A stretch of DNA of 64,000 bases, from contig NZ_CP026538.1 in NCBI RefSeq assembly GCF_004135975.1, positions 3,100,001-3,164,000 on the forward strand, in the 5' to 3' direction. The stretch comes from Solidesulfovibrio carbinolicus. Its GTDB lineage: Bacteria; Desulfobacterota; Desulfovibrionia; Desulfovibrionales; Desulfovibrionaceae. The notes under the pieces were generated by a model. That model was not told the DNA's origin and ran no database searches. It saw nothing but the letters and a program-made list of their open reading frames with translations. A program made the translations under genes and the position numbers. Shown piece after piece: positions 9,556 through 64,000 of this stretch. Numbering within the stretch: the first letter of the stretch is position 1; the number at the start of each line of letters is the position of its first letter.

Positions 9556-9679
9556 ACTTGTCGCCGCAAGCGCGTCGGTGGTTACAAGAAACTGCCGCGA
9601 ACAGCCGAGACGTTCCCGGCCGTTTGGGCTCGTGGAAAGGGGGAGAACGGCCCGTGCGGGCCAAAGCGCAAGAACGCGG

Positions 9680-11068
9680 CTACCGGCCGGGCCGGCAGAA
9701 AAGCGGCAGCACCGCCCCGGTCACATCGCGTTCCACTTCAATGACGTTGCGCTGCCCGGAACTGGGCGCCGAAACAAAGGGAACCTGGCCACGGGATAAA
9801 AAGGCCTTGAGCGAGGCCAGGGGCACGGCAAAGCCCACGTCGCCCAGCCCCTCGCCCACCCTGGCCCGCACAGCCGCGCCATCGCGGCGCGCCCGCACCA
9901 CCCCGGCCACCCGGCCGCCTGCGTCCAGGAGCGGCCCGCCGCTGTTGCCCGGCAGGACCTCGGCGCTCACGGCCAGATCCCCGGCCGGCCCCATGCCGCT
10001 GGCCAAATCCCGGGTGCGGCCCGAAGTCACGCGCATCCGGCCCGTACGCGCCGCCTCGCCCGGGTAGCCCGCGGCAAAAACCGGCGTCCCCGGGGAGAGT
10101 TCCCGTCCTTCGCGCAGGACGAGAACCTTGTCCGGGGCTACGGCCAGCCGCACCAACGCCAAGTCGTGTTCCGGGTCCAGGCGCAACAGGCTGGCCGCCA
10201 CAGGCTTGCCGTCCACCATGGCCACAAGGCTCTTGCAACCCTCGGCCACATGGGCGTTGGTGACCACATGCCCCAACCGGCTGACCACAAAGCCCGTGCC
10301 GGTGCGCAGGCTTTCGGCCGGTTTTTCGTCCTGGCGCGGTGAAACCTCCCGACCGCCAGACCGACCCCGGATGGCCTGGGCCTGGGCCGGCGGCAGTTCG
10401 CTGGCCGCCTGGGCCGACAGCCGGCCAAGGCGGGAGGCGAAAGGCTCGCCAAGCCGCCCCTTGCTCTCGGCAAAAAGGGCCAGGCGGTAGGCTTCGGCCG
10501 GATCGCGGGGAACCACCTTGCCGGCCAGATAAAGCTCGCCCAATAACACCGCCGCCTCGCCCGAACCGGCGGCCATGGCCTTGCGCAGATAGCCCGGCGC
10601 GTCCGAGGCCGGCCCCAGGCGACCTTCCAGGCGCATGGCTCCGGTGAGCAGCAACGCCTGGGCCGAGCCGCGCCCGGCCGCCTTGCGCAGCCAATCCCCG
10701 GCTCGCGAGTCGCTTTGGGGAACGCCCCGGCCCTCCAGATGCAGCACGGCCAGGGACAGCATGGCCGGCACCGAGCCGCCGTCGGCTGCCCGACGATACC
10801 ACTTGGCCGCTTCGGCCGCATCGGGCGGCGTGCCGCCCCGGCCGGCCTCGGCCATGCGGCCGGCCAGCCAGAAGGCGGCCGGATTGTCCGCGGAAAGAAG
10901 CGGCCGCAGCTCCTGTCTGGCCCGGGCATCGTCCCCGCGCTCGTACGCGCGCAAAGCGTCGTCGAAATCGGCCCAGGCCGATCCCGCGCCCCCCGGCAGC
11001 GCCAGGGACAGGCCAAGCAGCCCGGCGGCCACGGCCCTGAAAGCGCCTGAAGCAGGACGCACCGGCAT
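9680..11068 (-). CDS. Secreted Sel1-repeat and trypsin-like serine protease
   Basis: A 462-residue exported protein. A signal peptide (ending near 'SAWA') is followed by Sel1-type helical repeats (about residues 35-200), recognisable by recurring 'A..LAGRMAEAGRG', 'AAKWYRRAADGG' and 'A..LL..L...G' patterns. A trypsin-like domain comes next with His in 'VTNAHVAEG', Asp in 'EHDLALVRL' and Ser in 'GNSGGP' (around residue 375). It resembles HtrA-type periplasmic proteases in which the substrate- or partner-binding part is Sel1 instead of PDZ. Its ATG overlaps the stop codon of the upstream gene by one base (TGATG), so translation is coupled. Confidence 0.8.
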   Translation of the reverse strand: MPVRPASGAFRAVAAGLLGLSLALPGGAGSAWADFDDALRAYERGDDARARQELRPLLSADNPAAFWLAGRMAEAGRGGTPPDAAEAAKWYRRAADGGSVPAMLSLAVLHLEGRGVPQSDSRAGDWLRKAAGRGSAQALLLTGAMRLEGRLGPASDAPGYLRKAMAAGSGEAAVLLGELYLAGKVVPRDPAEAYRLALFAESKGRLGEPFASRLGRLSAQAASELPPAQAQAIRGRSGGREVSPRQDEKPAESLRTGTGFVVSRLGHVVTNAHVAEGCKSLVAMVDGKPVAASLLRLDPEHDLALVRLAVAPDKVLVLREGRELSPGTPVFAAGYPGEAARTGRMRVTSGRTRDLASGMGPAGDLAVSAEVLPGNSGGPLLDAGGRVAGVVRARRDGAAVRARVGEGLGDVGFAVPLASLKAFLSRGQVPFVSAPSSGQRNVIEVERDVTGAVLPLFCRPGR

Positions 11069-57482: not shown

Positions 57483-58319
57483 ATGTCCATGAAAAACAAC
57501 CGCGCATCTTCTTTGAGACTTCATATACTTACACGCATTGCTTCGTCAGCTTGTTTGCTTATATTTTTCACTATTTTCCCCTGTGCCGCTGCGGACTCAA
57601 CCGCCGAGACACAGGCGACATCGCGCGAAGAAGTGCAGTTTGATCGGTTACAAGGCGTTATTAAAAATATTCGAGCAAGAGTTTGGACTCTTGAGCTGCC
57701 AAATGGACAGACCAAAGACATCCGGCTGGCAAAAAACGTCTATTTGCACCCCCTCTCCGGATTGGACGAGCATAATCTCATTGCTGACCTCAAGGGCGTC
57801 GAGGACATCCCCAAGGGTGCGAGGGTGATTGTTTCGGGCCAAGTCTACACCAATGACCCGATTGTGCTGGCCAAGGAAGTGACCGTTCTGGGTTTGGACG
57901 AAGAGGCCTTGCTTATTGAGCGTCCGGACTGGTGGTCGTCACAGGCACGTTCTCTCGCCGACTTTTGGATTCGGGCGTATTTTCATGACGGGGACATCGC
58001 GGATCCTTCCAACTACCGCACTGTGATCAACAAAATCGGCAGCCCCAGGCCGGAGTTGGTCAACTTACAAGAAACGGCCACGCTTTCGCGGCTCATTTAC
58101 GGACTGAGTTCAACCTATATCATCACTGGAAATCAAAGAGTGCTTCGGGCCGCCAGCGAGTTCGTCCGCTTTCAGCGCGAACGGATGCGCATTGAGTCTG
58201 CGGACGGCAAGCACGTTTACTGGCTTCACGCCCGGCGCGGCGGATGTGAGTTGACGATCAATTTGAGACGCGTTTCGCGCGATTTGATACAAACCCCGTC
58301 GCCCGTCTGGCCTCGGTAA
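57483..58319 (+). CDS. Exported protein of unknown function, probably 3'-truncated
   Basis: A 278-codon frame with a signal peptide (about 14-37, ending 'PCAAA'). Residues 52-130 form a small beta-rich domain ('RLQGVIKNIRARVWTLELPNG', 'IPKGARVIVSGQVY'), and from 145 a helical domain starts ('SSQARSLADFWIRAYF', 'ETATLSRLIYGLSSTY') that resembles the beginning of an alpha/alpha-toroid such as AGE-type epimerases. It stops soon after 'YWLHAR', much too early for a full toroid, and the last 28 residues look out of frame. Its base composition is more AT-rich than the core genes, which suggests transfer. Confidence 0.55.
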   Translation: MSMKNNRASSLRLHILTRIASSACLLIFFTIFPCAAADSTAETQATSREEVQFDRLQGVIKNIRARVWTLELPNGQTKDIRLAKNVYLHPLSGLDEHNLIADLKGVEDIPKGARVIVSGQVYTNDPIVLAKEVTVLGLDEEALLIERPDWWSSQARSLADFWIRAYFHDGDIADPSNYRTVINKIGSPRPELVNLQETATLSRLIYGLSSTYIITGNQRVLRAASEFVRFQRERMRIESADGKHVYWLHARRGGCELTINLRRVSRDLIQTPSPVWPR

Positions 58320-58370
58320 TTGATACTGTCCCGGGAGAATGGGGGAAGGGGGTGGACGGTGGGGCCTCTC

Positions 58371-58444
58371 GCAAAACCCCACATAGCGCTCCAGGCGGCT
58401 GCCCGTGCTACGGCAGAGAGAATATCACCGTGTCACGTCCACCA
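58371..58444 (+). repeat. Island direct repeat, copy 1
   Basis: About 74 bases, most of them shared with copy 2, containing CGTGCTACGGC and GAGAATAT and ending in CCGTGTCAC. It is bracketed by short inverted arms GGTGGAC (near 58351) and GTCCACC (58437-58443). Confidence 0.75.
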
Positions 58445-58462
58445 AGGGGACTTTAAACGAAG

Positions 58463-58505
58463 CACGCGGCAGGAGCAACGCGCTTTGGGCTGCTCCTGCC
58501 GCGTG
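58463..58505. terminator. 15-bp perfect hairpin between the island direct repeats
   Basis: Arms 58463-58477 and 58491-58505 are exact complements with a 13-base loop. It could end transcription from the phage genes on the minus strand, though no T run follows directly. Confidence 0.6.
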
Positions 58506-58540
58506 ATGATGGCGGATGGCGAGGCCCCCCACCCGCTTTC

Positions 58541-58615
58541 GCGGAAACCTCGCATGGCGCTCCGGGCATCTGCCCGTGCTACGGCCGGGAGAATATTACC
58601 GTGTCACACCCGCCA
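58541..58615 (+). repeat. Island direct repeat, copy 2
   Basis: About 75 bases matching copy 1. It is bracketed by inverted arms GATGATGGCGG (58505-58515) and CCGCCATCATC (about 58610-58620), an arrangement parallel to copy 1 with a different arm sequence. Confidence 0.75.
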
Positions 58616-58669
58616 TCATCGGCTTGCCGTATAACAAAAAACGGTTCTCGTGTACAGCATGACAAAAAA

Positions 58670-60745
58670 TTATTCCCGCTTGGCTTCCGCCGTATTGTGC
58701 TTGTTGACCACCCGCGCCATCTCATGTCCATCGACAAAGAGTTGGGCGTTGAAATTGATGGTGCGCTCATCCTTCACAACAAGGTTCTTGGCCGCTTCCA
58801 TCGTTTCGGGCGAAGGCTCATAAAGCCACTTGCCTGTTTGACGACCGGCCATGCCCCCGGCGAACCAACCACCGAGTCCCCCCAGGAATGCCCCGATGGC
58901 GGTGCCAATGATAGGGATAGCAGAGCCAAGCGCCGCGCCTGCCGTCGCGCCAGCCAGGGCCGTAGCGGTGGCCCCGTAGGTTTCGGCATTATTAACGTTT
59001 TTCTGCGCCCGGCTGAGGCTTGGGTCGGTCTCGGTATTATAGATGTCCCAGGCGGCCTTTCCTGCGAGCAACCACGGCGCGGTCTTGGTTCCCGCGCCGA
59101 CGAGGGCGGTTGTTCCTTTCTCCAGCAAGCCTTTCGTGCCGGCGGTTACGGCCGCCGCGCCTGCCCCGCCGCCCGTCAGCATGTGAAAGCCGCCTGCCGC
59201 GAGCAGGCCGGCGGAAAACGCGCCTACGGCGGTGCTGGCCTCGGCGACCACGGTGGCAAGCCCCGGGAACTCCCGGGCAAGGTTCGTGGCGGCGTCTATG
59301 ACGGTGTTGAGCGCCGGACCGATGTTCTCAAACGTGCGAGACATCGCATTGTCTTTCTCGTTCTGGAGTTGTTGCGCCTTGAATTCGGTAGTCTGCGAAG
59401 CGACGTTGAACCCTTTTTCCACTGCACCGTGCGCATTGTTCAACCCTGAATAGATATTTGCGATATAGTCTTTTTGAGTCATCAGACCGACAAGCCCTAG
59501 CTGCGCCTGTCTGTCTTGAAAATACTTCCCAAGAAGGCTACCCTGGACAATGTCGGCCATCTGTTCGAGAAGAGAAGACTTCTCCTTGTCGTCCTTGCTG
59601 GCGACAATTTTTTTCTTGAGTGCCTGAAAGTCCTTATTTTTTCCGAATACCTCGGTTTCCATGAGTTTTACAATCGCTGTAAGCGGGTCCATCCCTTTGC
59701 CGGCGGCCAAAGCAAGCGTTTTTTGAACATCGATACCTGCCTTCTTGCCGAAGTCTTGTTGCGTATCAGGAGAAGTCAGCTTGCCCAAGAGGTTGGCCAA
59801 GTTGTTGGCGGCCTTGTCGTTGCTCCCCGCCACCACGGCTTCCCCCTGCAACGACGCAACCAAGCGCTTAAAGCCCTCCATGTTTTTCATGCCTTTGGCT
59901 TCGGCCATCAACTCCGGCATCCATTTGGCCATGTCCTTGCCTTCAAAGGAACCCAGCTGGCCGCCTTTGACAATGACATCCAGGGCCTCTTCAATTTGAT
60001 CTTCGCCAAAATACCCTTGCTTCAAGCCGGACAAGACTGTTTTGGCAAGCTCATTGGCCGTGATGTCTCCGCCGGTAGAGGCTTTGAGGACTTTCGGCAA
60101 GGTACGCGATGCCAACCCCTGTTCCATTCCCCCCGCAAACAGGCTGTTAAGGGTTTCTGCCGCATTTTCGCGGGTACCACCCCCGATCTTCGTCGATTCG
60201 GTGATGACCTTGTTTAGCGTCTGCATGCCCGCGATCTGGCCCGCCTCATCCTTGTCGGCATAGGCCACACGGGCCATCTTGTTCAGGCGACTCTCATAGC
60301 TGATGGGCTTTTCCAGGGCGCGCCCGGCCACCATGCTGGCGGCGGCCACGCCCGCCCCGGCTTGGCCGACGCCCTTCACCACGCCCATGGCCACATGGCC
60401 GGCCGTACCCACGCCACGCAAAGCGTCGCGCAGGCGTAGGCCGGCCTTGGCCGTCTGGTCGATTTCCCGGCTGGCTTGGCGGCTCTCCCGGGCAACGTCC
60501 CCCACCTCTTTGGCGGTACGGCGGGCCGCTTGACCCATGCCGCCCATGAGCTTGTCCGTGCGCGCGGCGGCGATGCCCAAGGACCGCACCCCATCCCCGG
60601 CGCGGCCCACTTCACGGGCGGCGGCCCCGACGCCTTGGCCCGTGCCATGGGCGGCCCGGGTGAGCGTATCCAGGGACTTTGCCGCCCGGCCGCCCATCTC
60701 GTCACGAAGGCGCAGTATCACCGATATAACGGTATCCTTGGCCAT
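58670..60745 (-). CDS. Phage tail tape-measure protein (Mu-like)
   Basis: A 691-residue tape-measure protein. The N-terminal 110 residues are helical and Ala/Arg-rich with heptad-like repeats ('AAARTDKLMGGMGQAARRTAK'). The middle has the phage TMP core ('ISYESRLNKMARVAYADKD', 'IGGGTRENAAETLNSLF', 'GDITANELAKTVLSGLKQGYFG'). Hydrophobic Gly/Ala-rich stretches near the C-terminus ('GAALGSAIPIIGTAIGAFLGGLGGW') match the membrane-active part. The protein sets tail length and enters the host envelope. Its ATG follows immediately after the stop of the frameshifted tail-chaperone product. The genes normally downstream in Mu are absent here. Confidence 0.9.
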   Translation of the reverse strand: MAKDTVISVILRLRDEMGGRAAKSLDTLTRAAHGTGQGVGAAAREVGRAGDGVRSLGIAAARTDKLMGGMGQAARRTAKEVGDVARESRQASREIDQTAKAGLRLRDALRGVGTAGHVAMGVVKGVGQAGAGVAAASMVAGRALEKPISYESRLNKMARVAYADKDEAGQIAGMQTLNKVITESTKIGGGTRENAAETLNSLFAGGMEQGLASRTLPKVLKASTGGDITANELAKTVLSGLKQGYFGEDQIEEALDVIVKGGQLGSFEGKDMAKWMPELMAEAKGMKNMEGFKRLVASLQGEAVVAGSNDKAANNLANLLGKLTSPDTQQDFGKKAGIDVQKTLALAAGKGMDPLTAIVKLMETEVFGKNKDFQALKKKIVASKDDKEKSSLLEQMADIVQGSLLGKYFQDRQAQLGLVGLMTQKDYIANIYSGLNNAHGAVEKGFNVASQTTEFKAQQLQNEKDNAMSRTFENIGPALNTVIDAATNLAREFPGLATVVAEASTAVGAFSAGLLAAGGFHMLTGGGAGAAAVTAGTKGLLEKGTTALVGAGTKTAPWLLAGKAAWDIYNTETDPSLSRAQKNVNNAETYGATATALAGATAGAALGSAIPIIGTAIGAFLGGLGGWFAGGMAGRQTGKWLYEPSPETMEAAKNLVVKDERTINFNAQLFVDGHEMARVVNKHNTAEAKRE

Positions 60746-61224
60746 TTAACGCCCCTTGCGTCTTACGGGCACGATACGGCGCCCTCGGGAAGACGGGGAA
60801 ACCTTGCCCGTCAGAATGTCCACAAACGCCTTGATTTCGGGAAGGGTCATGGCGCGGACCTCGGCCAGAGTCAGGGAACGGCCCGCGAGCATCGCTTCAA
60901 GGAACCTGTAGTCCCTTAAGCGACGTTCGCGGGCTTGAGCTTTCCCTGAAGTTCGCCCTCGGCGGACTCCAGGACGCTGTATTCGCTGTAGTGCAGGCCG
61001 GCGAGCAGTTCCGGGGTGATCTGTTCCGCCGTGAGTTCTCCCAGGCGGGTCAGGGTCCGCGACCAGACGTAACGGGACAGCCGGGCCGTACAGGCTTTCT
61101 CGGGGGCCTGTTCGATGGCCCATTCCATGTCGTCGAGCGTCGGCATACGCATCTCGAACCGGGTATGCAGGTTGCCTTCGGAATCCGTGTAGCCGTAATG
61201 CAGCGTTCCTTCGACCGTGACCAT
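60746..61224 (-). CDS. Tail assembly chaperone, -1 frameshifted long form (gpGT-like)
   Basis: A second product of the same start. A shift to the -1 frame at 60940-60946 gives a protein of 159 residues whose extra part reads 'RERRLRDYRFLEAMLAGRSL' and 'MTLPEIKAFVDILTGKV', and ends one base before the tape-measure ATG. In phage lambda the equivalent GT product binds the tape measure during tail assembly. The -1 frame is open throughout and has no start of its own with a ribosome site. Confidence 0.75.
60916..61224 (-). CDS. Phage tail assembly chaperone, short form (Mu gp41-like)
   Basis: A 102-residue protein: 'YTDSEGNLHTRFEMRMPTLDD', then helical 'MEWAIEQAPEKACTARLSRY' and 'TRLGELTAEQITPELLAGLH'. 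Position before the tape-measure gene and the presence of a frameshift site mark it as a tail assembly chaperone. The zero-frame stop TAA (60916-60918) comes shortly after the slippery heptamer. Confidence 0.85.
   Translation of the reverse strand: MVTVEGTLHYGYTDSEGNLHTRFEMRMPTLDDMEWAIEQAPEKACTARLSRYVWSRTLTRLGELTAEQITPELLAGLHYSEYSVLESAEGELQGKLKPANVA
60940..60946 (-). promoter_or_regulatory. Programmed -1 ribosomal frameshift site GGGAAAG
   Basis: On the coding strand the heptamer G GGA AAG (X XXY YYZ) lies in frame in the chaperone gene, 21 bases before its stop. It is the same heptamer used by phage lambda G/GT. Confidence 0.8.
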
Positions 61225-61248
61225 GATTTTCTCCTTTGTCGGCAGCGG

Positions 61249-61449
61249 TTAAGCCGCCGGGTTGTCAGTTGCAGCGGCTTCGCCGTCCTGGACGATCTCA
61301 ACGGAAAGGTCGGGATCGTCCTGAAGCGCGGCGAGCTGCTTGCGGGAAAGGGTTCGGGCCTCGATGTCCTGGGGAGCCGCGCCGAAGTGGCGGCCCCCTC
61401 GGTAGTGCCCTCCCCGTAACGAACGGACGCGGACGATGCGGGTGTCCAT
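61249..61449 (-). CDS. Small Mu-like protein downstream of the head gene (gp35/HI1506-like)
   Basis: A 66-residue protein: 'MDTRIVRVRSLRGGHYRGGRHF', then 'LSRKQLAALQDDPDLSVEIV' and an Ala/Asp-rich end. Location directly after the major head gene and the 'L...QLAALQ.DP.L.VE' pattern match the small gp35/HI1506-related proteins of Mu-like phages. AGGAGG upstream fixes ATG 61449; the gap to the head gene is 8 bases. Confidence 0.7.
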   Translation of the reverse strand: MDTRIVRVRSLRGGHYRGGRHFGAAPQDIEARTLSRKQLAALQDDPDLSVEIVQDGEAAATDNPAA

Positions 61450-61457
61450 GAAGCCTC

Positions 61458-62363
61458 CTAGCCCAGCCAGGGCGTGACGAGCAGCTCGCACAGGCCCTTG
61501 TTGGGGTTGTCGCCGCCGTTGGCCAGACGGTCGGCCAGGACCACTTCATGCGCCTTGACCCGGAGCGTGGGCGGAACCACCAGGAGCGTGGGCCGGATGC
61601 CGAGGGGACGGCCGCCGTCCGCCTTGTAGGACGCCATGGCCCCGTAGGCCGCATTGAAGTTCTCGGAATTAAGCGGCAGGCGGGAGCAAAAGGCCATCTG
61701 CCAGAAGGCGAAGCCGGCGTTGCAGCGGTAGCGGATGCCGAAGCGGTATTCATCCTTCATGAACACGGCTTCGTCGCGGGTATCGGTCAAGGCCGTCAGT
61801 TCGGGCTTGGTCCTTTCCTGGAAGATCACGGGCTTGATCGTCCGCGAGTCGTCGAGAAGATACCATGCGGGATCGGTACCGGCGGCGCAATTGGAGACCA
61901 AGGCCGGCGCGCCCGTGCCGTCCACGTTCGGATAAACGGGGTGTTCCGTGTCGAAATAGTTCTGCCCGTCGTAGCAGGAAAGCGCGCCGCCCTGGGAGAG
62001 CAGGCCGAAAACCAGCTCGTCGGGGAAGACCTTGGCCGCGCGGCCCATCTCCCCGAAAATGGGCTTGTAAACGCCGACTTGGTCGTCTTCGATGTCCACC
62101 CGGCTCACGGAAACGGTGGACTCGTATTTCTTGTTGGTGATGCTGTAGGCGTGCGCCTTCATGTCCCGCACGACGCGTTCGCCCATCCACTCCCGGAACT
62201 GCGGAAATTGCCCGAGCCAACCGTAAATATTGGCTTTGGAGGTTGAAGAGAGCCGCGTGGCCACCTTGTCCCATGCCGTGGGCGTCTTCTCGAACTCGCG
62301 ATTGAATTCGCCGCGAAAGCCGACGCACAACGCGTCCAGAAGGCCCGGGGTGATAAGAGCCAT
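61458..62363 (-). CDS. Mu-like phage major head protein (gpT)
   Basis: A 301-residue major capsid protein of the Mu gpT family. 'VGFRGEFNREFEKTPTAWDKVA' at the N-terminus, 'NIYGWLGQFPQFREWMGERVV' and 'YDGQNYFDTEHPVYPNVDG' are family signatures. It builds the T=7 icosahedral shell. The ATG abuts the stop of the protease gene with no space, typical of this phage gene pair. Full family length, no broken codons. Confidence 0.93.
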   Translation of the reverse strand: MALITPGLLDALCVGFRGEFNREFEKTPTAWDKVATRLSSTSKANIYGWLGQFPQFREWMGERVVRDMKAHAYSITNKKYESTVSVSRVDIEDDQVGVYKPIFGEMGRAAKVFPDELVFGLLSQGGALSCYDGQNYFDTEHPVYPNVDGTGAPALVSNCAAGTDPAWYLLDDSRTIKPVIFQERTKPELTALTDTRDEAVFMKDEYRFGIRYRCNAGFAFWQMAFCSRLPLNSENFNAAYGAMASYKADGGRPLGIRPTLLVVPPTLRVKAHEVVLADRLANGGDNPNKGLCELLVTPWLG

Positions 62364-63251
62364 CTACAGCGCCTCCTTCCCGGCGAGGTATTCCACTTCG
62401 GTCAGGCCCAAGAGTCTGGCCGCTTCCTTTTCCGCGTCGGATAAGGCGACCACGCAAGTGGGATTTTCCGTCAAGGCGACGAGGCGCTTGCCTTCCAGGA
62501 ATTCGGCTTCCGTCCGGCCAAGAAGCCGCGCGGCCTCGCGGTCAGCATCCGACAGAGCGACCCGAGGTGCGCCAGTGGGGGAAGACGACGAGCCGGGACG
62601 AAGTTTGCCCAGGAAGGCCCGCAGCTTTTGGGGATGCTGCGTTCCCAGGTCCACGGCCCATCCTTCCAGGGCCTTGGGCAAAATGCCCTCGGCGATGGCG
62701 GCCTTGACCAGGATCGGGGCCGGGGTGTTCCCGTCCAGGTCCAGGGAGGCGGCCACGGCCATGAGGCCGTCAAGGGCGGGGGTGTTGGTGAGCCCGGCAT
62801 TGATGAAGCGCCGGACCGCTCCGGTTTTGTTGTCGAACTCGAAAAAGGGGCTGATATAGCGGTATTCGCCGGAGGCGATGCAGGTCCGGGCGCGTTCGGT
62901 CCAGGTGGCCTTGGCGAAAAGGCCCTGGCCGGGAAAGTAGGCAAGGGCCTGAATCCAGCCCGCCGCCGGGGCGGGTTGACCGTTTTCACGCGAGCGGAGG
63001 CTTTGGTGTTCGTAGTCCACGACGGGGCGGGCCTCGCGCGCGTCCACATCCGCAATGATGTCCGGGGCGATAGAGGCGTCCATGAACCAGACTTTCGTTT
63101 CACAGCCCTGGATATTGCCGGGCCGGCCGTCGCTCGCCGCGAATTGGCCTTCCGGGAAGAGTTGGACGTTGTAGCCCGTGGGCAACGCCTTGGGGTCCTC
63201 GGGAAGCTGGATGGCCAGCGAGGCCGTAAATTGGCCGGGATGATGTTCCAC
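62364..63251 (-). CDS. Mu-like head maturation protease/scaffold (gpI), GTG start
   Basis: A 295-residue protease-scaffold. The protease core has 'DASIAPDIIADVDAREARPVVDYEHQS' split over residues 65-90 with the His in 'YEHQS', then 'YRYISPFFEFD' and 'GLTNTPALDG' with Ser/Thr candidates. The C-terminal 65 residues hold a duplicated segment: 'LSDADREAARLLGRTEAEFL' and 'LSDAEKEAARLLGLTEVEYL'. It starts with GTG (63251); the ribosome site CAGGAG lies in the last codons of mor. It trims the head and guides shell assembly. Confidence 0.9.
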   Translation of the reverse strand: MEHHPGQFTASLAIQLPEDPKALPTGYNVQLFPEGQFAASDGRPGNIQGCETKVWFMDASIAPDIIADVDAREARPVVDYEHQSLRSRENGQPAPAAGWIQALAYFPGQGLFAKATWTERARTCIASGEYRYISPFFEFDNKTGAVRRFINAGLTNTPALDGLMAVAASLDLDGNTPAPILVKAAIAEGILPKALEGWAVDLGTQHPQKLRAFLGKLRPGSSSSPTGAPRVALSDADREAARLLGRTEAEFLEGKRLVALTENPTCVVALSDAEKEAARLLGLTEVEYLAGKEAL

Positions 63252-63254
63252 GTT

Positions 63255-63764
63255 CTACTCCTGATTGGTTTTCAAGGACACGGCCCCGTTTGGCGCTCTG
63301 GAGGCGCTCTCTGAATCCTGACCAACAACCCGGCGTCTTCGCCTTTCAGCCGTAACAACCCCCGGGTCCGTGCCCTTGAGAATCGACCAGATGTGGCGAT
63401 CCGAAAAATTATGCCGTCGAGCAAGGAGTTTGACGGCTTCTTGCGCCCCTATTGTGGTGCGAAGTAATTCTTCATACTCAAGACAGATGGAGACATTCCG
63501 ATGAAGCAAGGCCTCCTTGCGTCCCATCGGAATATACAGTTCGCTTCCGCCAAAAGCCCATATCAGCTTCTCGGTGACTTCCTTTCCGAGAACTGCTTCA
63601 ATGTTTTGAGGCCATGCGGACTTTCCGTTTGGAAACCGCATCGTTGTTCCGCCAAAGCTTTTGACAAGTCGAATGGTCGATTCATATCCGATATGGTGCA
63701 CAAGTTCGGACATGACGTCGCAGGCCTTACAGGCAGGGCGGTGAAGCGCTTCGCGTTGACTCAT
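63255..63764 (-). CDS. mor: Mor/C-type transcription activator of Mu-like phages
   Basis: A 169-residue DNA-binding activator. The dimerisation part includes 'GGTTMRFPNGKSAWPQNIEAVLG' with 'LIWAFGGSELYIPMG', and a helix-turn-helix follows in 'AVKLLARRHNFSDRHIWSILKG', as in Mu Mor and C. In Mu, Mor turns on the middle promoter and C the late promoters. Here it is followed within 3 bases by the protease gene, although many genes normally lie between. A Cys pair 'CKAC' near the N-terminus and a basic C-terminus (RRRRR) are extra features. Confidence 0.85.
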   Translation of the reverse strand: MSQREALHRPACKACDVMSELVHHIGYESTIRLVKSFGGTTMRFPNGKSAWPQNIEAVLGKEVTEKLIWAFGGSELYIPMGRKEALLHRNVSICLEYEELLRTTIGAQEAVKLLARRHNFSDRHIWSILKGTDPGVVTAERRRRRVVGQDSESASRAPNGAVSLKTNQE

Positions 63765-63849
63765 GCGAAACAGATAGCCTCACCGCCCTATATTGCGCGA
63801 GATGAAGGGATTCAGTTGGTTGGCAGAGCAGGCAAAAGAAGGGGTAAGG

Positions 63850-64000
63850 CTATGTCGCCGAAGCCATTTTCTTTGTTAAAGTGGCCAAGCGTTTGTCGAG
63901 AACGCTGATAACGGCCTGGAGTTGCCCGCGTGTAGCGTATTCCAGCCTATCCAGTCCGGTTTGACGCTTTAAAATGCCTGACGCGTAGGTCCATGGCATG
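63850..64000 (-). CDS. gemA: GemA-like protein (partial, N-terminus beyond the window)
   Basis: The last 49 residues of a frame that continues past the window. 'YASGILKRQTGLDRLEYATRGQLQAVISVL' follows the C-terminal pattern of Mu GemA (gp16) regulatory proteins. In Mu gemA lies directly before mor, and it does so here, 85 bases upstream of it. Confidence 0.75.
   Translation of the reverse strand, partial: MPWTYASGILKRQTGLDRLEYATRGQLQAVISVLDKRLATLTKKMASAT

Follow-up and report, generated by a model that had tools for sequence, protein, structure and literature searches.

A compact Mu-like element in Solidesulfovibrio carbinolicus, probably a transposable phage satellite

The window analysed is a stretch of 64,000 nucleotides of the 4.69-Mb genome of Solidesulfovibrio carbinolicus (label G000), C1:3100001-3164000, in which window position 58245 is C1:3158245. 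Its last part lies within a complete Mu-like element, C1:3158245-3171170, of 12,926 bp, with a 5-bp duplication, GCGGA, at both flanks. When the element and one GCGGA copy are removed, a single open frame of an AGE/GlcNAc-2-epimerase-like host gene is obtained. The features are as follows, in window positions or, beyond the window, in C1 coordinates; lengths are in amino acids (aa).

57483..58244, plus strand: 5' part of the interrupted host gene (AGE/GlcNAc 2-epimerase-like, with PF07221 in its 3' part)
58240..58244: target-site duplication GCGGA, repeated at C1:3171171-3171175
58245..64000: in-window part of the element
58245..58305: right end of the element, with TGACGATCAxTTTGA common to the left end
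58374..58444: 71-nt repeat, copy 1
58545..58615: 71-nt repeat, copy 2 (83% against copy 1)
58670..60745, minus strand: tape measure protein, 691 aa (phrog_794, 3e-134, nearly the whole profile)
60746..61224, minus strand: tail assembly chaperone (102 aa) with a -1 frameshift extension (phrog_508, 3e-17)
60940..60946, minus strand: slippery heptamer GGGAAAG, in frame in the chaperone
61249..61449, minus strand: short gp35-like protein, 66 aa, start counted from MDTRIV
61458..62363, minus strand: major head protein T, 301 aa (phrog_371, 5e-125; PF10124, 2e-119)
62364..63251, minus strand: short protease/scaffold protein I, 295 aa (PF10123, 8e-65)
63255..63764, minus strand: Mor activator (PF08765, 6e-12)
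63850..64000 and on to C1:3164512, minus strand: GemA, 3' part (PF06252, 1e-16); the window ends inside the gene
C1:3164447-3164512, minus strand: hammerhead-II
C1:3164531-3165163, minus strand: cc, a 210-aa coiled-coil protein
Between cc and MuB, beyond the window, minus strand: winged helix-turn-helix (wHTH) regulator
C1:3166237-3166995, minus strand: MuB, 252 aa (phrog_296, 7e-51)
C1:3167016-3169163, minus strand: MuA, 715 aa (phrog_310, 6e-144)
C1:3170129-3170941, plus strand: repressor, at the far end of the element

The initial annotation of the window had described seven genes separated by 85, 3, 0, 8, 24 and 0 bases, and the open reading frames (ORFs) bear this out, all seven being open and on the minus strand. 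The identities given for gemA, mor, I, T, chaperone and tape measure rest on strong family matches; that for gp35 is weak (FluMu_N 0.0026, phrog_27280 2e-7), its counterpart in a full-size prophage of the same genome being a 114-aa ORF. The frameshift site is intact as stated, with GGGAAAG in frame and the -1 frame of the chaperone open up to the tape measure start. Beyond the tape measure the reported repeats are present, but the supposed unrelated sequence is the host gene past the right end at 58245. Extension to the right, which had been proposed as a check, revealed an early region with repressor, MuA, MuB and two small regulators, also on the minus strand, but not the missing late genes.

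Sixteen ORFs of the element were scanned against Pfam (PF) and phrog profiles, with extra hidden Markov models for portal, the terminase large subunit TerL and sheath. Terminase, portal, sheath, baseplate and lysis families gave no match among these 16 ORFs, nor did a site-specific integrase, the integration gene being of the MuA type. With no terminase and no portal, the element cannot make virions alone. It has the MuA/MuB transposition genes and short target duplication (GCGGA) of a Mu-like transposable phage, and it is small, complete and mobile, with its own integration and replication genes and an incomplete virion set, as satellites in general are. Judging from these genes and the ends, MuA, MuB and the repressor provide for its transposition and maintenance.

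A full-size Mu-like prophage lies on the same chromosome, at about C1 1642.7-1681.4 kb (ends read by eye). It has the terminase large subunit, portal, head-tail adaptor, sheath, baseplate hub and wedge, and endolysin; the adaptor was not found in the compact element, and a candidate ORF for MuF in the prophage matched no family. The T protein of the element is 68% identical to that of the resident prophage and 59% to that of DMS3. Full-size I and T genes are also present in the genomes labelled G266 and G152. By eye, the left 75 bp of the element resemble the corresponding part of full-size phages in this group past the transposase site, the zone that holds the packaging site of Mu. A scan with the left-end pattern recovered 6 of 25 loci, one of them likely spurious, and the resident prophage. 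Adjoining the left end of this prophage, at C1:1681400-1682530 (stretch L012), are a stretch that by eye looks like a right end and the broken remains of T/gp35 from a further Mu-like prophage.

The closest MuA outside G000 among 288 Desulfovibrionaceae genomes (the family sample, used for the MuA and cc searches) has 77% identity and is the one close match. It belongs to a sister element in Desulfovibrio sp. DV (G266, stretch L043; the element of G000 is on L008), which carries cc, gemA, mor, I (90.5%) and T (96.3%) in the same order at a different insertion site. T is followed there by a gp35 fragment and then, on the opposite strand, by a gene for a 1139-aa CHAT-NB-ARC-TPR protein and a 149-aa ORF, which stand where G000 has chaperone and tape measure. 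The gene order for which a search had been proposed recurs as mor-I-T, but with chaperone and tape measure replaced. The sister element is of 14,137 bp, its ends match those in G000 and its flanking duplication is GAATC. The ratio of nonsynonymous to synonymous substitution rates (dN/dS), another check that had been proposed, was calculated with our own Nei-Gojobori script and is low between the two elements: T.092, I.127, gemA.143, mor.17 and MuA.19, with the repressor saturated. Purifying selection thus acts on T, I and mor between the two. Since dS is unequal between the genes, the elements are mosaic.

Further compact elements, in part with other transposases, were found in Desulfovibrionaceae and in Vibrio (locus counts here and below include repeated records). 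Of all the compact elements six have both ends resolved, namely G000, G266, three from Vibrio and one from G270, the set leaving out G152, G003 and G270a. These six measure 9.6-14.1 kb, roughly one third of the length of a complete Mu-like genome (about 37-39 kb), and all have duplicated flanks. The portal, TerL and sheath models gave no match in ten compact elements and, of the virion genes sought, these elements keep only subsets of I, T, gp35, tail chaperone and tape measure. The G152 element has MuA, MuB, gemA, mor, cc2, I (221 aa), chaperone and tape measure, while that of G003 has another order: T, I, chaperone, tape measure, cc2, mor, gemA. The IMG/VR contigs L241 and L274 have a different transposase and a cassette related to that of G152 (L241 against G152, 85% DNA identity over 3.7 kb); dN/dS for G152/L241 is.135 for the tape measure,.206 for I and.241 for the chaperone. 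G270 has two elements with different transposases, 95% alike over mor-I, one of them with TG...CA ends and an 8-bp repeat. In G203 only transposase, an AAA piece, I and cc2 are seen, and the contig ends in the transposase. The Vibrio branch (L169 and plasmids NZ_CP097295.1 and NZ_CP020079.1) has MuA, MuB, Mor, cc, a 126- to 139-aa ORF and tape measure; all three elements are bounded by TG...CA, each with a 6-bp duplication of its own (TTAAAG, TCATGC, ATATAA). The dN/dS values of this branch (MuA.039, chaperone.092, cc.185) are rough because dS is 1.1-2.3. Such elements are easily overlooked, two plasmid records naming cc 'glyoxalase' and several of those in IMG/VR being short viral contigs.

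L349, L074, L078 and G581 are less certain candidates, and in G581, a short-I candidate from the phylum sample (395 genomes, searched for I), transposition genes were not found on the stretch read. G632, G645, G405 and G432:C22, which are weak or short I rows of the phylum sample, and G035 are not counted among the compact elements here. MuA with neither portal nor G000- or G152-type cc occurs in 14 loci; several are short contigs or cut stretches, so MuA without portal was not taken as a criterion by itself. On contig L349/L177 (IMGVR_UViG_2843904799_000001) mor, short I, T and tape measure directly adjoin Mu-like early genes, and another T is present on the same contig; this may be a satellite beside a helper.

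Some small features were also seen. The 71-nt repeat has a third match in the genome inside the full-size prophage, C1:1665587-1665685, near a NACHT/nSTAND-type gene (L011:2594-5011), and a similar stretch, read by eye, precedes the CHAT gene in L043; with 3 places only in G000, the notion of genome-wide repeats was rejected there. Compact and full-size Mu-like elements alike have a type II hammerhead ribozyme (RF02276) that coincides with the 5' end of gemA or immediately precedes it (L008:8448-8513, minus strand; L043:12419-12484; also L044, L046, L047, L050, L057 and L058); in L008 and L043 there is overlap with the longest ORF of gemA. The ribozyme was rejected as a satellite hallmark, being present in all four full-size loci among seven scanned. 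The right ends of the two G270 elements each have three copies of a structured unit of ~105 nt (L353:11803-12402 and L352:12664-13121), a lone copy being at G265:C6:85693-85796; among 14 genus genomes the unit occurs only in G270 (6) and G265 (1). Its consensus fold shows compensatory change in 10 of 33 pairs, and it gave no Rfam gathering match.

Protein I is short wherever the well-supported compact elements have it. In its full-size form it is protease plus scaffold; according to PMC2628397, related phage KS10 has a scaffold gene in frame inside the protease gene. A census of I, leaving out 3'-open ORFs and ORFs with identical last 120 aa, gave 219 distinct complete ORFs from 394 loci with a median of 349 normalised aa. 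Seven compact entries lie at 188-226, G581 at 227, the split L078 at 156 and G000/G266 at 292. Alignment places the missing segment in the middle, the scaffold part; in G000 much of it is gone and the C-terminal motif LSxxExxAARLLGxxxxxY is present in two copies. Residues D79, H82 and S134 (G000 numbering) are invariant across 13 aligned I proteins and are probably catalytic. Among 204 full-size I proteins (ORFs of at least 306 normalised aa, including L074, itself a compact candidate) the motif occurs once in 181, not at all in 22 and twice, weakly, in 1. At the same threshold six of the 10 short proteins have two copies and four have one; the two from G270 show a gapped second copy by eye. 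The short set is without L078, a split ORF, and with G581, and L389, L127, L349 and L188 are in neither class. The doubled motif is thus seen in 6/10 short against 1/204 full-size proteins (Fisher 1e-8, or 5e-5 with the short proteins collapsed to lineages). The motif may bind coat protein, given its position in I and given that the satellite protein CpmB shares the C-terminal coat-binding motif of the helper scaffold.

A tree of 86 protease domains of I, taken from the family loci and every fourth other locus, places G000/G266 beside the full-size I of G126, G203 beside G206, and L241/L274/G152 beside L242/L275. Accounting for the nine well-supported compact rows takes 5 changes (gains or losses), and starred branches force 5; a wider group including L349 and G581 needs 7 changes, 5 of them forced. 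A single clade of short I appeared in 0 of 200 bootstrap trees, the bootstrap being not fully settled, and was rejected by the approximately unbiased (AU) test (p 2e-5). On this tree the short forms do not make up one clade.

A further feature is the coiled-coil protein. Of the 238 loci scanned, 11 (nine distinct elements) have cc or cc2 and 166 have portal, with no locus having both. The G000-type cc has 4 strong matches in the family sample, all in compact elements, and weak matches in G180 (4e-10) and in G174, G052 and G164 (near 1e-4). The G000 cc matched no known phage protein in 50,697 phage records, and a viral scan found only the known sister. Its structural model has two long helices, 12-72 and 78-165, forming a long helical hairpin, and a disordered tail with a conserved IPxLRxxW. 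The Vibrio cc is a separate family (phrog_16182), likened to it by gene place and coiled-coil look only. Among the same phage records only an ICP1 isolate, MW794173.1, matched the Vibrio type, in an unannotated 84-aa stretch (9656-9907) of 54% identity.

Taken together, these results suggest that the element is probably a transposable phage satellite, a reduced Mu-like element that would travel in the particles of a full-size Mu-like helper. A satellite had been raised in the initial annotation as one using helper tails, and although a satellite fits best, this was too narrow: terminase, portal and connector are missing as well, so the helper would need to supply packaging, much of the head and most of the tail, the chaperone and tape measure being the element's own. 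We infer the dependence on a helper, packaging, a redirection of size and the roles of cc and the tape measure. The element integrates and replicates by its own MuA and MuB, whose genes it carries between duplicated flanks. The helper would be a full-size Mu-like phage providing terminase, portal, connector, most of the tail and lysis, and its terminase would package the element DNA. The few virion genes kept would be those touching particle assembly. cc and the shortened, motif-doubled I may bind coat protein and steer it into small heads for about 10-14 kb, in the manner of CpmB, Sid and TcaP of other satellites, while the element's own T (in some, chaperone and tape measure) may tune or replace helper parts. 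More tentatively, with a likelihood a little short of even, the elements may have followed one repeated route from Mu-like phage to transposable satellite: packaging, connector and most tail genes dropped, the scaffold segment of I largely stripped with its C-terminal motif kept or doubled, and a separate coiled-coil scaffold added. Chaperone and ruler are kept in some, so that helper head and tail assembly may both be steered.

Several observations weigh against these proposals. Of the 166 loci with portal, no more than 68 extend to an early gene among those sought, so the exclusivity of cc and portal is less tested than the raw count suggests. The cc model had no specific fold match in the PDB (none by Foldseek at E <= 0.001), and the cc groups are alike in coiled-coil look only. 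The tree was built from the protease part of I, and recombination could mimic separate origins. Full-size I or T had no match in the G270, G003 and G203 genomes, so such a helper is not always resident. Tape measures are of 691 aa in the element and 701 aa in the full-size prophage of G000, and elsewhere of 629 aa against ORFs of 623-639; tail-length redirection was considered and rejected, as the tape measures of compact elements are not shortened. The terminal bases of the left end are AC (reverse complement), not TG, in both G000 and G266. Gene sets vary: T is absent from G152, G270 (two), L241, L274 and L418, and T and chaperone are found in two of the three Vibrio elements and I in none. 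Constraint is weaker on cc (dN/dS.33,.51,.57 and.38 in four pairs, the highest of the compared genes in three), on the tape measure in L274/L241 (.46) and G000/resident prophage (.39), and within G270 on I (.44) and mor (.53), from 17 and 13 changes. Seven of ten Vibrio comparisons are saturated. With that reserve for Vibrio, the dN/dS values indicate genes kept by selection rather than decay.

The most serious alternative, though an unlikely one, is an anti-phage interference element, in which the kept or altered virion proteins would be dominant-negative assembly poisons against Mu-like phages, giving superinfection exclusion, with spread by transposition, plasmids or occasional transduction and no specific packaging. 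Two Vibrio members are on plasmids, the G266 member carries the CHAT-NB-ARC-TPR gene, G203 shows only transposase, AAA piece, I and cc on a contig ending in the transposase, and blocking of virion or tail assembly is a defence strategy described in PMC10884400 and PMC11364771. However, the left-end block is kept beyond the transposase site and the six resolved elements are all of 9.6-14.1 kb. Many known satellites also interfere, so the satellite reading stays compatible with such activity.

Decaying Mu-like prophages, in which a few late genes were kept by chance, are an improbable explanation, although many late genes are gone, the right end has repeats and a true T remnant with a stop does lie elsewhere in G000 (C1:1681951-1682519). 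Six elements at independent sites have intact ends, dN/dS is low, and a like retained gene set with the same kind of change in I is found in several lineages. The simple decay considered in the initial annotation is likewise disfavoured by junctions shared with a second species, both elements having duplicated flanks, and truncation by the window edge is rejected, since the ends are intact and a sister element exists. The chromosomally kept particle gene set also suggested there is disfavoured by the different insertion sites. For the same reason, an ordinary transposon with phage capsid genes as cargo for host use, as an encapsulin-like container or a gene transfer agent, is very improbable: T and protease could in principle form shells and the genes are kept, but the element is not fixed across the family (288 genomes, 4 places with G000-type cc), T is absent from several members, and a transfer agent would have no portal or terminase.

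The satellite proposed here differs from known systems. It shares with Mu-like phages MuA, MuB, repressor, GemA, Mor, the left-end block and a short target duplication, but is of 12.9 kb rather than about 37-39 kb, lacks the full head, packaging, tail and lysis set, and has a shortened, remodelled I and an extra cc. Capsid-forming phage-inducible chromosomal islands (cf-PICIs) are of similar size with their own major capsid protein and protease; as described in PMC10690885, they also encode portal, connectors and terminase, whereas the G000 element has none of these and moves by MuA/MuB, which sets it outside the cf-PICIs. Unlike PICIs, P4-like satellites and PLE, it has no site-specific integrase among the 16 scanned ORFs. 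SaPI1 CpmB is described as a different protein body that retains the C-terminus by which the helper scaffold binds coat protein (PMC5644958, PMC6893505), P4 Sid as helical with coiled-coil propensity (PMC6893505) and PLE TcaP as an external scaffold (PMC10945586). Like CpmB, short I retains the C-terminal motif of its full-size form, and cc is small and scaffold-like with a predicted helical hairpin. In contrast to CpmB, Sid and TcaP, it is here the protease/scaffold protein that would act as the altered scaffold, carrying its motif twice, and the likeness drawn is one of description. PmCI172, a Pasteurella multocida PICI, is reported to form small particles (T = 4-sized), and the strain concerned has a resident prophage that is Mu-like; the account in PMC6893505 gives it a capsid-like protein but does not describe it as transposable or mention cc or short I.

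MuA, MuB, GemA, Mor, I, T, chaperone and tape measure are of ordinary Mu-like families. The combination of genes, its recurrence and the change of I appear to be new, provisionally, since the literature search, which found no description of Mu-like or transposable satellites with capsid genes, covered papers available without subscription. Known phage satellite families mostly integrate by site-specific recombination. If the proposal is correct, a class of satellites that move by transposition would represent a new way of parasitising phages, with many potential landing sites, plasmids included. The short I forms of separate tree placement would be a natural experiment relating scaffold length and coat-binding motifs to capsid size, and the compact elements would test whether defective-looking prophages can be proto-satellites.

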